Part shown: positions 39,789-43,530 of the stretch, piece by piece
Layout of the letters: every line of letters starts with the position of its first letter
Position numbering within the stretch: the stretch's first letter is position 1
Assembly: GCF_001715975.1 (NCBI RefSeq)
Contig: NZ_MARB01000002.1
Span: forward strand, 1 to 64,000
Source: Candidatus Thiodiazotropha endolucinida
Lineage (GTDB): Bacteria > Pseudomonadota > Gammaproteobacteria > Chromatiales > Chromatiaceae
Reading direction: 5' to 3'
DNA: 64,000 bases
The notes under the pieces: model-generated
The model's database searches: none
The model's input: the letters and a program-made list of their open reading frames with translations, nothing else
What the model was told of the DNA's origin: nothing
Program-made: the position numbers and the translations under genes

Positions 39789-41300
39789 ATGTCACTCGCC
39801 ATTCTCTATTCCCGCGCTCAAGAGGGCGTACAAGCACCCCTGGTCACCGTGGAAGTCCATCTCTCCAACGGCCTTCCGGGCCTCTCCATCGTCGGTTTGC
39901 CCGAAATGGCGGTGCGTGAGAGTAAAGACCGGGTCAGAGGGGCACTGATCAACAGCCAGTTTGAGTTTCCCGCCCGGCGCATCACCATCAATTTGGCGCC
40001 TGCCGATCTGCCGAAAGAGGGGGGGCGATTCGATCTGCCCATTGCCCTCGGCATCCTGGCCGCCTCGAATCAATTGACGATGGACCCCTTGAGCCACTAT
40101 GAGTTCAGCGGCGAGCTTGCCCTGTCCGGCGAACTGCGCCCGATCAGCGGCATACTGCCTGCAGCGCTCACCGCGCGCGACGCCGGGCGCTCCCTGATCC
40201 TGCCGCAACAGAATGCCGGTGAAGCGGGACTGGTCAACGGACTCCAGTGCTATCCGGCCAGCCACCTCCTCGAAGTCTGTTCACACCTCAACAGTGTCAA
40301 CCCGTTGGCACAATACAAAAGCACGCACGGTATCGAGGCGAGTGAAAAGAGCCGACTCGATATGGCCGATGTCTACGGACAGAGTCATGCCCGGCGCGCC
40401 CTGGAGATCAGCGCCGCCGGTGCCCACTCACTGCTCTATATCGGTCCGCCCGGCACTGGCAAGTCGATGCTTGCCTCCCGCCTGCCGGGAATCCTGCCCC
40501 CTATGAGCGAGGAGGAGGCGCTGGAGTCCGCAGCCATTCACTCGGTGGCCAACAACAGGGCTTTCCAACCCGCCCAGTGGCGTCAAAGACCCTTCCGCGC
40601 CCCCCATCACACGGCCTCGGCGGCGGCCCTGGTCGGCGGCGGCAGCAATCCGAAACCCGGCGAAATCTCCTTGGCGCACCGCGGCGTGCTGTTCCTGGAC
40701 GAACTCCCCGAATTCGATCGGCATACCCTGGAGGTATTGCGCGAACCCCTGGAAAATGGTCGCATCACCATCTCCCGCGCCAACCGCCAGGTCGACTACC
40801 CGTCAAGGTTTCAGCTGATCGCGGCGATGAACCCCTGTCCTTGCGGCCACCTGGGAGACGGCAGCAACCGCTGTCACTGTACTCTCGACCGCATCACTCG
40901 CTACCGCATGCGCATCTCGGGTCCCCTGCTGGATCGCATCGACATGCATGTGGAGGTGCCCAGGCAGCCGCTGCAGATCAACCGTCAATCGCCGCAGAGA
41001 CAAGAGGAGTCGAGCGAGACCATTCGCCGCCGGGTCATCGATGCCCGCGAAATACAACTCGACCGGCAGGGCTGCACCAACCAGGTCCTGCAAGGCGTGC
41101 ATATCGAACAGGTGGCCGCCCCGGATAAAGCGGGCAACGAGCTTTTACACCGGGCCATCGAAAAGCTGGGGCTGTCTATGCGGGCCTACCACCGCATCCT
41201 CAAGGTGGCGCGTACCATCGCCGACCTGGAGGCGAGCCCTAAGGTGGAGACAGCGCATATCAGTGAGGCGATTGGATATCGGCGTTTGGACAGGAGCTAA
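39789..41300 (+). CDS. comM: ComM/YifB family AAA+ helicase
   Basis: 503 residues. The Mg-chelatase-like N-terminal domain (about 20-140) is followed by the AAA+ core: Walker A GPPGTGKSM (near 219) and Walker B FLDELPEF (near 301), with a zinc-type CPCGHLGDGSNRCHC in between and the C-terminal Mg-chelatase domain to the end. ComM is a hexameric branch-migration helicase that extends integration of transformed DNA. The last 59 codons (41121-41300) are repeated at 42783-42962 after a small island. GGAAGG precedes the ATG. Confidence 0.95.
   Translation: MSLAILYSRAQEGVQAPLVTVEVHLSNGLPGLSIVGLPEMAVRESKDRVRGALINSQFEFPARRITINLAPADLPKEGGRFDLPIALGILAASNQLTMDPLSHYEFSGELALSGELRPISGILPAALTARDAGRSLILPQQNAGEAGLVNGLQCYPASHLLEVCSHLNSVNPLAQYKSTHGIEASEKSRLDMADVYGQSHARRALEISAAGAHSLLYIGPPGTGKSMLASRLPGILPPMSEEEALESAAIHSVANNRAFQPAQWRQRPFRAPHHTASAAALVGGGSNPKPGEISLAHRGVLFLDELPEFDRHTLEVLREPLENGRITISRANRQVDYPSRFQLIAAMNPCPCGHLGDGSNRCHCTLDRITRYRMRISGPLLDRIDMHVEVPRQPLQINRQSPQRQEESSETIRRRVIDAREIQLDRQGCTNQVLQGVHIEQVAAPDKAGNELLHRAIEKLGLSMRAYHRILKVARTIADLEASPKVETAHISEAIGYRRLDRS
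41121..41300 (+). repeat. comM 3'-end copy A
   Basis: These 180 bases encode the last 59 residues of comM and its stop. A second copy lies at 42783-42962 in the same orientation. A hand alignment without gaps gives about 30 differences in 180 bases (about 83% identity); only four change the amino acid. Confidence 0.9.
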
Positions 41301-41346
41301 CTCAGTAGCTTTATAAAGACTGTCTTGAAAACACTTCGTGTTTAAG

Positions 41347-41715
41347 CTAATTGGATTGAATTAAAGGCTCCCATCTAGCAGAATTTTCTGGTAATTCAGA
41401 TTTACCTAATTTCCAACACAAACTTAAAGTATCCTTCAAATTGTTGTTACTATCTAAAATTACTTTTTCGAGTTTTGAAAAATACGCTTCAAAGTGATAC
41501 TCGAGAAGATGCTCTAAAAGGCAAGTTGCCACGGCAGTCCTTAGGTCCTCATCACTGCTAGATCCGTGTTTCAATATAATAGGCCACACATGATCTGGGA
41601 GGTACATTGCATAGTCTGTAAGTGTCGCCGCAGCACTCCAACGCACATCGTTATCAGTTTGCCGTTCTAATTCAGGTAGCAAGTTTAGATCACAAATACT
41701 GTGAGAATTTGTCAT
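41347..41715 (-). CDS. HEAT-repeat-like hypothetical protein in the comM island
   Basis: 122 residues, markedly AT-rich and with different codon use from comM next door. The helical pattern with R-W-S-A-A-A-T-L and D-E-D-L-R-T-A-V-A-T-C-L-L-E-H-L resembles two or three HEAT repeats. No signal or membrane segment. Small HEAT proteins often serve as protein-binding partners or immunity proteins, but nothing here proves such a role. It belongs to the island flanked by the two comM 3' ends. Confidence 0.55.
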   Translation of the reverse strand: MTNSHSICDLNLLPELERQTDNDVRWSAAATLTDYAMYLPDHVWPIILKHGSSSDEDLRTAVATCLLEHLLEYHFEAYFSKLEKVILDSNNNLKDTLSLCWKLGKSELPENSARWEPLIQSN

Positions 41716-41819
41716 AACGCATCTTCTGTTTCAGACCATTTTTTTATCGAAAGAAGATTTATCGGGTCTTCCCAACTACTATTATTTATATTAAATATTT
41801 TTCTATAAATCGTAAATGA

Positions 41820-42386
41820 TTACCGAATAGAACTACTGGCACTTTTATCCTTTACCCTTAGCATGATGTGGGCGCCAATTAAAAATATCAACGCCAATAA
41901 TATAATCGTGATCGTGATTAGCATAGTTACGATAAAGACCCGATAAGCATAATCCCTTGATGTCAAACAGTCATTGTATAATTCACAACTATATTGCTTA
42001 TCCTCTATCACTACGTCATCTCCCTTACCTTCATTATCTACTGCATCTGGGCCGGCGGAATATATTTCGAATTTCTTCCCGTCTTCAATAATATTATAGA
42101 CATAGTTGTTCCCCCAGTAGTCTCGTGGCAGCCGGTTTAGATAACGTTTCTGATTAGAATCATTCTTTTGCTTAGCATTGTTAGCTAAACTAATGAGTCC
42201 CTCTTCCGCACTTGGAAGTTGTTTATGGTCTTGCCAATATTCATTGACAGCATCCTTCAAATATCTTATATCGCTCTTGCTTTTTCCTAACCAATACCCA
42301 TGACTATCTACATTCGGCATAGTTGCCACCATTCCAATTATTGAGACAATTAATATCGGTAGTAACCATTTAAAATATTTTTTCAT
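41820..42386 (-). CDS. GspG-like domain protein with two membrane segments
   Basis: 188 residues, AT-rich. Residues about 1-23 form an N-terminal membrane anchor or signal. Residues about 40-125 match the core of major pseudopilins (GspG): A-V-N-E-Y-W-Q-D-H, L-P-S-A-E-E-G-L, YLNRLPRDYWGNNYVY, and S-A-G-P-D-A-V-D-N-E-G-K-G-D-D, close to the calcium-site motif of GspG. It lacks the prepilin cleavage motif and conserved Glu5, and it ends with a second membrane helix (about 150-175). So it is not a normal pseudopilin; the domain seems to have been moved to a membrane protein. Function unknown. Confidence 0.55.
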   Translation of the reverse strand: MKKYFKWLLPILIVSIIGMVATMPNVDSHGYWLGKSKSDIRYLKDAVNEYWQDHKQLPSAEEGLISLANNAKQKNDSNQKRYLNRLPRDYWGNNYVYNIIEDGKKFEIYSAGPDAVDNEGKGDDVVIEDKQYSCELYNDCLTSRDYAYRVFIVTMLITITIILLALIFLIGAHIMLRVKDKSASSSIR

Positions 42387-42520
42387 AAGTATAAACTCGT
42401 ATGAAGGTCATACAGGCTACGCCAATAACCATCAGTTAAATAGGACATCCACCCTAAATTTGCCAAAAACAAACCAATATGGCGATCTCTCGTTAGTCCT
42501 CGATATCAAGGAGCGATATC

Positions 42521-42715
42521 ATGCCCAAGCCAAGGAAAGTCCAGGTATCAATGGAAACCACCCCTTATTACCGCTGCGTCTCCCACTGTGTTCGTCTCGC
42601 CTTTCACTGCTGCGTTGATTCACATACCGGCAAGAGCTATGAACATCGGCGCCAGTGGATCGTCGATTGGATGAAATTGTTGGCGGAGATCTTTGCTATC
42701 GACATCTGTGCCTAA
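42521..42715 (+). pseudogene. Truncated Y1-type (IS200/REP-like) transposase fragment
   Basis: 64 residues matching only the N-terminus of Y1-type transposases: P-K-P-R-K-V-Q-V-S, YYRCVSHCVRLAF, then HRRQWIVDWMKLLAEIFAIDICA. Complete relatives go on to an MSNHYH-type catalytic motif near residue 75, which is missing because a stop follows at 42713. It is a remnant without activity. It lies just before the second comM 3' end. AAGGAG precedes its ATG. Confidence 0.75.
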
Positions 42716-42782
42716 GCAGTTGCATAAATAGGACCCCCACTCTTAATTTCTGCTGGAATTGGACATCGTGAAGTTTTTCACG

Positions 42783-42962
42783 CCGGACAAGCAGGGCAAC
42801 GCACTACTGCACCGGGCCATCGAAAAACTTGGTCTGTCGATGCGCGCCTACCACCGTATCTTGAAGGTGGCGCGCACTATCGCCGACCTGGAGGCGAGCC
42901 CGGAGGTGGAGACCCCGCATATCAGCGAGGCCATAGGTTATCGACGTCTGGACAGAAGCTAA
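42783..42962 (+). pseudogene. comM 3'-end copy B (fragment)
   Basis: The last 59 codons and stop of a comM gene without the rest. It begins at CCGGACAAG, the same point where copy A starts to match (CCGGATAAA at 41121). Differences from copy A are nearly all in third positions, so it came from, or was until recently part of, a functional comM. An in-frame ATG at 42759 gives a 67-codon ORF, probably meaningless. It marks the right edge of the island. Confidence 0.85.
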
Positions 42963-42981: not shown

Positions 42982-43530
42982 TCAGCGCACCAGCCCTTGC
43001 TCTACCTGGTCTCTGGTTTCCCGGCCGCTCAGTTGCTCGATCAGCTCCAGGGCGAAATCCATTGCCGTGCCCGGCCCCCGGGAAGTGATCACCCGGTCGT
43101 CGCTGATGACCCGTTCAAGCTGTACATCGACCTGGGGCAGATCCATATTGTCCAGCACCCCCGGATAGCTGGTCGCTCGCCGTCCCTGCAACAGGCCGGC
43201 GCCGGCCAGCACCTTGGGTGCGGCACAGATTGCGGCGGTGAACTTGCCTTGTTGATTGAGGCGTTTCAGCATCTCATGGATGCGGGGATCCGCATCGAGG
43301 TAGTCGGCGCCAGGCAGGCCGCCGGGCAACACCATCATATCGAACGCCTGATCCATGACGGCATCGAGGGTGGTATCCGGCACCAGGGTGATGCCTCTCG
43401 AGGCCTTCACCGGCCCGTCTTTAAGGCCGGCGGTAACCACCTCGATATCGGCCCGTGTCAGTAGATCTGTGATGGTGACTGCTTCGAGCTCTTCGCATCC
43501 TTCGGCAAGGGGGACGAGTACGCGTGCCAT
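42982..43530 (-). CDS. DJ-1/PfpI family protein (YajL-like)
   Basis: 182 residues, normal length for DJ-1/YajL. The nucleophile elbow cysteine is Cys102 in AAICAAPKVLA, with the partner Glu in AEGCEELE (residues 9-16), and SRGPGTAMDFALELIE near the C-terminus. Relatives act as protein/nucleotide deglycases or redox chaperones; the exact activity is debated. GGGAGG lies 8 bases before ATG 43530. Its start overlaps the 3' end of the upstream gene by 73 bases, so the pair is probably co-transcribed. Confidence 0.9.
   Translation of the reverse strand: MARVLVPLAEGCEELEAVTITDLLTRADIEVVTAGLKDGPVKASRGITLVPDTTLDAVMDQAFDMMVLPGGLPGADYLDADPRIHEMLKRLNQQGKFTAAICAAPKVLAGAGLLQGRRATSYPGVLDNMDLPQVDVQLERVISDDRVITSRGPGTAMDFALELIEQLSGRETRDQVEQGLVR

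Follow-up and report, generated by a model that had tools for sequence, protein, structure and literature searches.

Diverged 3' ends of comM in Candidatus Thiodiazotropha endolucinida and their possible origin in integrative elements that land at codon 350

Why does an intact comM gene possess a second, diverged copy of its own 3' end a short distance downstream? We addressed this question in a stretch of 64,000 nucleotides (nt) from Candidatus Thiodiazotropha endolucinida (contig NZ_MARB01000002.1, positions 1 to 64,000; hereafter the window), where comM and the repeated end enclose a small group of genes. The original prediction, made from the letters of the sequence, proposed that the copy next to the gene body (copy A) may have been brought by an integrative element, since decayed, and that the distal copy (copy B) may be the original end, or else that a related strain's DNA had recombined into the locus. 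The answer to which the evidence leans, by a small measure, is that comM has been hit repeatedly by integrative elements, whose foreign ends were kept in frame while the old ends were stranded, and that the window holds a shrunken case.

The repeat itself was as predicted. In a whole-genome search, comM nt 1333-1512 (41121-41300) recurred in the same orientation at 42783-42962 (83% identity, E 5e-49), and the query matched just these two places, itself included. At 83.3% identity over 180 sites there are 30 differences, which Nei-Gojobori counting divides into 24 synonymous and six nonsynonymous, with a synonymous divergence (dS) of 0.99 and a nonsynonymous-to-synonymous ratio (dN/dS) of 0.05; the four amino-acid (aa) changes in 59 that had been reported were also correct by eye. 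Since the differences are mostly synonymous, both copies appear to have diverged as working gene ends. The insert between them is indeed AT-rich, with a GC content of 0.34-0.45 in 400-bp windows versus 0.62-0.66 across most of comM. When aligned with comM of the same-genus genomes G004 or G020 (our handles), copy B extends leftwards to 42750 (comM nt 1300). The working comM turns from host-like to foreign at a fitted position ~220 nt ahead of the 180-base repeat.

We aligned comM from 20 genomes, omitted G023 and G024 as too distant and compared the remaining 18 rows, all of the same genus, in all 153 pairs. Over nt 1-1047 the window comM was 95.5-96.2% identical to those of G020 and G004, and identity to these two genomes was 94-96% over most of the compared neighbourhood, versus 77.3-78.6% over comM nt 1121-1512. 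Six of the 153 pairs stood out most strongly, with z from -3.9 to -5.7 against -1.7 for the next: G016 paired with G002, G008, G009 and G010, and the window with each of its two sisters. In the 11 close pairs (5' identity of 86.9% or more; without the window, G016 and G020-G004) the gap between 5' and 3' identity was at most 4.9 points, against 17-23.5 in the outliers, with generally larger differences in more distant pairs; this control rejected mere hypervariability of the tail. Moreover, the 5' tree united the window with G020 and G004 (support 100/100), and the 3' tree (nt 1121-1512) united it with G006 (98/98). By the approximately unbiased (AU) test, grouping the window with G004 and G020 was rejected for the 3' part (p 6e-5), and grouping it with G006 was rejected for the 5' part (p 0.002). 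The drop in identity to its sisters, the conflict between the 5' and 3' trees and the AU tests thus all point to copy A as a foreign end from a G006-like lineage.

A simple origin for two same-orientation copies within 1.7 kb would be that the comM end was duplicated in tandem and the AT-rich genes were inserted later. This we regard as extremely improbable: copy B as sister of the working tail was rejected (AU p 0.0057), dS is about 1 and copy A groups with G006. The duplicate origin that the original prediction had named as fatal to its proposal was thereby ruled out. Placing copy B with G004, G020 and the third tail of G020 was compatible with the data (AU p 0.25) on a short 180-213 bp. Of the earlier proposal, therefore, the foreignness of copy A stood firm and copy B proved not to be A's tandem duplicate, while B may be of host type and A may have been carried by an element.

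Evidence for elements comes from relatives. In three genomes of the genus, G020, G014 and G016, host-type comM ends are stranded at one base behind islands, with empty-site controls for each. These tails start exactly at comM nt 1048 (codon 350, within NPCPCG), and to their left stand a 21-bp arm, GGCARRAARGCWACGC, five bases and TG, followed by comM. Unoccupied relatives with one continuous comM match the stranded sides, each match beginning at TG: i) G020 was collinear with G004 from nt 1048 to the conserved right neighbour of the locus, a gene that we take from its sequence to be DJ-1/PfpI-like (97.7%, 2162 bp); ii) G014 was collinear over 3.7 kb with G005 (96.7%) and G018 (96.1%), and the match with G005 still started at TG when the query began 121 bases earlier; iii) G016 matched G002 at 83.0% over the first 182 bp and then at 92.3% over 2485 bp, into a 719-aa open reading frame (ORF). 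In the 3' tree the stranded tails likewise fell with these relatives: tail 3 of G020 with G004 (95/87), that of G016 with G002, G010, G009 and G008 (100/99) and that of G014 with G005 (100/88).

The islands differ in content and depth. Including the working end, comM tails number four in G020 and two each in G004, G016 and the window. In G004, comM is followed by a gene pair, a comM tail fragment (nt 1419-1505) and the DJ-1-like gene; the pair is presumably toxin-antitoxin/GNAT-like, both here and in G020. In the left part of the G020 locus comM is intact and is followed by a tail in decay (nt 1383-1512), the window's HEAT-like gene in frameshifted form, a transposase-like ORF and ORFs of 1046 and 2592 aa; the right part has a helix-turn-helix (HTH) gene and the comM tail from nt 1048, after which the locus continues like that of G004, with the gene pair, the tail fragment and the DJ-1-like gene. 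In G016 an intact comM precedes a small ORF and a 2778-aa Teneurin/RHS-like ORF; beyond these come an HTH gene that has decayed, the comM tail from nt 1048 and the 719-aa ORF, whose counterpart (719- to 742-aa) lies directly 3' of comM in G002, G008 and G009. Of the giant ORFs of G020, that of 1046 aa has a transglutaminase domain and that of 2592 aa has CARDB, CarboxypepD and FG-GAP domains; these giants and that of G016 are accompanied by small AT-rich neighbours, and by sequence all look polymorphic-toxin-like. Despite the stranded ends, comM itself runs to a complete 3' end in G020, G016 and the window, and in the window that end is clearly foreign. In G016 the working tail was 64-67% identical to the group of G002, G008, G009 and G010, versus 87-90% in the 5' part. 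A foreign working end is thus indicated in the window by identity and tree and in G016 by identity, and host-type stranded ends were seen in G020, G016 and G014.

The G014 contig with the stranded end starts in repeated sequence and the HTH gene and then enters the comM tail at nt 1048. The start of comM lies on another G014 contig and is cut at about codon 25; the two contig ends (C256 and C49) share 80-odd bases, inverted, and look as if one repeat element sat at both edges of a deletion in this reduced, 2.6 Mb genome.

The same junction was found outside the genus. Arm and TG adjoin a comM tail in six genomes of three families, i.e., G020, G016 and G014 plus G198, G052 and G328 from two other families of the same class, and a reverse-strand HTH gene stands beside the junction in all six (decayed in G016). 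Within the genus the arm was present in three of 22 genomes, and the HTH gene in the same three among 40 relatives. The HTH protein was matched in 13 of 369 class genomes; its three full-length matches (G052, G198 and G328) all lie on a comM tail at codon 350, and in the other 10 no comM was found within the small loci fetched. G052 has two stranded tails, and no working comM was found in it; on its contig C90 (911-3168) two HTH-comM tail units stand in tandem, their tail ends nearly identical by eye, as an independent stack.

A complete element was present in G328, where comM codons 1-351 and 346-502 are separated by 35 kb. The element splits comM at the nt-1048 TG, and its joined flanks give an open comM of 511 codons. 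At the left junction lies a serine recombinase gene with Resolvase and Recombinase domains, 505 codons of it outside comM and its 3' end continuing antisense into comM. CcrB, XisF and CcrC models match the protein below their cut-offs; the best NCBIfam model was CcrB, far below its own. The G328 arms are inverted copies at 14 of 21 positions, a level reached by four of 20000 shuffles. Within the insert, at C23:88766-97534, a set of multi-ubiquitin, E2 and ThiF/JAB-like genes is accompanied by a DUF6527 gene and one for a mad8-like protein, a probable defence cargo. The junctions of G020, G014 and G016, the empty sites and the G328 element share one base, which makes codon 350 of comM a place where elements with a serine recombinase land. 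Uninterrupted loci and a larger comM island with a recombinase, for which the original prediction had pointed to relatives, were thus found, the latter in another family.

The first 120 residues of the G328 recombinase, searched against the 369 class genomes at E 1e-20, recovered G328 alone, and against phages and plasmids it found distant relatives, at most 30% identical among the matches listed. A comM search of 210 genomes of the order (192 matched) gave, among the places listed, 11 short-frame stretches from 10 genomes that were inspected, none of them with the arm; the two-piece comM matches of G398, G447, G448, G449, G454, G463 and G524 are interrupted at codons other than 350. One of 80 comM loci (L086) showed weak extra tail pieces.

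How, then, could comM receive islands and stay whole? Elements would integrate through a large serine recombinase, distantly CcrB-like, with exchange at TG within codon 350 (ATGAAYCCN-TG-YCCNTGYGG). In this genus, arrival would fuse the host 5' part in frame to a comM 3' end of foreign origin, keeping the full reading frame, and would push the previous 3' end downstream, behind a cargo of polymorphic-toxin-like giant genes, a toxin-antitoxin-like pair and small AT-rich genes. Because the rebuilt comM again contains the site, such events could stack. In the window, copy A would be the working end gained most recently and copy B one stranded earlier; of the cargo, the HEAT-like gene, the GspG-like gene and a Y1-like relic would remain. 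We infer that the recombinase made the junctions seen in the genus, that the window's island arrived as such an element and that it was the element, and not homologous recombination, that supplied the new end. The fuller version, in which serine-recombinase elements carry a 460-bp replacement comM 3' end, land without breaking comM and stack, so that stranded ends record every arrival, is a tentative proposal that we hold possible but short of probable.

The window is linked to G020 by its first insert gene. The unit of copy A and the HEAT-like gene was collinear with tail 2 of G020 and the frameshifted HEAT-like gene that adjoins it (84%), and among the 22 genus genomes the gene was found in these two alone. 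The window locus would therefore be a deletion-shortened stack of the G020 type, and its island is probably a decayed case of a codon-350 element. The proposal of a decayed integrative element thus gained from the finding that islands sit in the comM of relatives, where empty sites allow comparison; it gained nothing from the insert, in which no recombinase gene was seen in the ORF list or the domain search.

Several observations weigh against repeated element landing as the explanation: i) the window's genome was searched for the recombinase, the arm and the HTH gene, and none was found, so that the recombinase gene that marks one end of the element in G328 is missing from the window insert and the arm-TG junction beside an HTH gene from its stranded end; ii) copy B starts at nt 1300, directly behind the Y1-like relic, and not at the nt-1048 junction of relatives; iii) the tree does not fix the place of the short copy B, which differs from G004 by 13% where the genomes differ by about 5%; iv) G004 and G020 also have extra tails, yet their mutual identity drops mildly (98.0 to 90.6%); v) G328, the only complete element seen, simply cuts comM, with no replacement end present; vi) when the 22 genus genomes were queried with the G328 protein, none showed a serine recombinase at comM, although a very divergent one could escape; vii) in the 3' tree the working tail of G016 is a long branch placed, weakly (66/58), beside the group to which G016 belongs, and because of this placement the foreignness of that end is indicated by identity; testing it outside its group, sets without the stranded tail were rejected (p 0.015 and 0.036), and the set with the stranded tail is that same branch of the best tree; viii) in G021 comM is divided between two contigs exactly at this TG, a break that could be an assembly accident.

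The breakpoints of the working ends add to these points. Two-rate fits placed the exchange at nt 1103-1122 in the window and at nt 1018-1047 in G020, away from the nt-1048 core, and at nt 1164-1189 in G016, where it is not resolvable because nt 1048-1163 are conserved even between distant pairs. An exchange by the element exactly at the TG core was thus not confirmed by the fits, and these deviations make homologous grafting a strong rival. In that account, DNA of a related strain recombined with a crossover near nt 1110 and its other end joined illegitimately near nt 1300 beside the Y1 relic. This would have brought in a foreign 3' end with the genes downstream of it and left the resident end behind, with no site-specific recombinase. 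It is possible, though we would not call it probable. The absence of recombinase, arm and HTH gene from the window island makes it a serious rival; the fitted breakpoint, the transposase relic adjoining copy B and the unrejected resident-type ancestry of copy B also speak for it. On the other hand, nt 1048-1102 are so conserved that the core was disfavoured in the window only weakly (P 0.01-0.08), and homologous recombination alone leaves unexplained the three one-base junctions with a shared arm in relatives and the second tail found in both strong outlier genomes, the window and G016 (G004 and G020, with their mild drop, have one too). A search for a donor compared the DNA just downstream of comM from six genomes with the fetched relatives and found none; beyond comM and the Y1 relic, stretches were shared only by window-G020 (the HEAT unit, 84%), G004-G020, G015-G021 and G004-G015.

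The two processes could also have alternated, a serine-recombinase element breaking comM and later homologous recombination with a relative's comM restoring the gene and stranding the old end. A broken comM was indeed seen in G328, the G020 breakpoint falls inside the stub that such repair would use, and removal of AbaR with comM restoration recovered transformation about 300- to 1000-fold in A. baumannii (PMC7508600). We nevertheless judge such break-and-repair cycles improbable: the simplest repair would delete the whole element through its right flank, and the best-fit breakpoints of the window and G016 lie beyond the stub (the G016 region being too conserved to resolve).

The original prediction had drawn a parallel to the AbaR islands, and a remnant of such a Tn6022-like (Tn7-family) island was considered too. 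As a target, comM is indeed shared: Tn6022 and Tsy use the Walker B region of comM, and Tsy also has a small HTH protein (PMC10293859). That region corresponds to codon 301 of the window comM, whereas the site here is codon 350. Those islands further differ in their machinery, Tn7-type or tyrosine recombinase, and in interrupting comM (PMC10293859, PMC7508600); in the window comM is uncut and full length. Tn7-type genes were absent from the ORFs and domain matches of the window insert, nor were Tsy-type YRec/TnsF tyrosine recombinase ORFs seen in it, so this origin was rejected and we consider it very unlikely, even though a member of the same family, G540, has a TniB/TniQ element in comM. That 31-kb element (C48:1-32118 and C28) splits comM at about codon 285, encodes TniB, TniQ, a Mu-type transposase and SspD/F/H-like defence proteins and represents a second, different comM-directed type in the family.

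Closer likenesses exist among serine-recombinase islands. Dehalococcoides carries stacked islands at ssrA in which every copy of the target's own 3' end has a foreign motif on its left (PMC3146451), which provides a precedent by analogy for an element that might carry a replacement end; shared with the present case are a CcrB-like serine recombinase adjoining the target, its frame running antisense into it, and tandem stacking. Unlike there, where the target is an RNA gene with a 20 bp repeat, here a protein gene is concerned, some 460 bp of it are stranded (from nt 1048 to the stop codon) and no recombinase was found in the stacked comM loci of this genus. Wolbachia sr1WO prophages (PMC9203015) likewise combine a large serine recombinase, a magnesium chelatase gene as target and HTH_XRE genes at the element's 3' end, but split the gene and carry phage cargo; the likeness holds at the level of the gene. 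Durrant et al. (PMC10083194) found magnesium chelatase genes targeted by 12.4% of predicted site-specific integrases, with stacked or replaced gene ends not described in the part of that article covered. Thus serine recombinases using Mg-chelatase genes (PMC10083194, PMC9203015), comM-directed elements (PMC10293859) and stacked islands (PMC3146451) are already known. Searching the open-licence literature by title or abstract start, we found no description of stacked or replaced ends that leave comM whole, and relative to the known serine-recombinase and ssrA islands the stacked comM ends look new.

If the proposed mechanism is true, cargo rides on a gene whose product promotes further DNA uptake. 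Islands that cut comM lower transformation; here a symbiont lineage retains whole comM while islands arrive at the same codon. Stranded ends could serve as short tags by which to count and order island arrivals, name donors and test selection for live comM, and the codon-350 site with its arms offers a directly testable serine-recombinase pair.

The features of the locus are collected below.

Table. Features of the comM locus in the window (positions within the 64,000 nt)
Feature	Position	Strand	Remark
comM (YifB/Mg chelatase-like AAA ATPase), 503 aa, intact, chimeric	39789..41300	+	TIGR00368, 667 bits
TG dinucleotide, comM nt 1048-1049 (codon 350, NPCPCG)	40836..40837	+	uninterrupted in the window; junction base in relatives
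Host-like to foreign switch interval, comM nt 1103-1122	40891..40910	+	two-rate breakpoint fit versus G004, log-likelihood difference 56.5
Copy A, foreign working comM 3' end, nearest G006	41121..41300	+	support 98/98 for nt 1121-1512
HEAT-like gene, 122 aa	41347..41715	-	in 2 of 22 genus genomes
GspG (T2SSG)-like gene, 188 aa	41820..42386	-	T2SSG domain; other genus matches at most 36% identical
Y1-like transposase element relic (multi-copy element)	42437..42749	+	between two 25-bp direct repeats
Copy B, putatively stranded comM 3' end (nt 1300-1512), open, adjoins DJ-1-like gene	42750..42962	+	alignment
DJ-1/PfpI-like gene (presumed), conserved right neighbour of the locus	42982..43530	-	

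The gene names given to the insert fared unequally. The GspG-like protein was borne out by a T2SSG match that scored 59 bits where 21 suffice, and hydrophobic stretches close to both termini were seen in its translation. The HEAT-like protein had sub-threshold matches (DUF6869, E 2e-4; HEAT, E 0.005). The transposase piece had no Pfam match; it aligned at 52% with a 351-aa ORF of G020, itself a weak Y1_Tnp match below cut-off (E 0.0095). The direct repeats around it (42437-42461 and 42725-42749) are 84% identical and enclose an ORF remnant at 42521-42715. Stretches related to this relic occur elsewhere in the genome and the genus, e.g., G000:C46 and G000:C12.

Neither G004 nor G015 has the HEAT/GspG insert. 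On contig C1 of G015 a different cargo lies between comM and the DJ-1-like gene, and no second comM tail was found there; judged by sequence, its genes are presumably oleate hydratase-like, patatin-like and GGDEF-like. In G012, G017 and G019 comM is missing or ends at contig ends (codon 25 in G017 and codon 72 in G019; none found in G012), breaks that would fit repeated, non-assembling comM ends.

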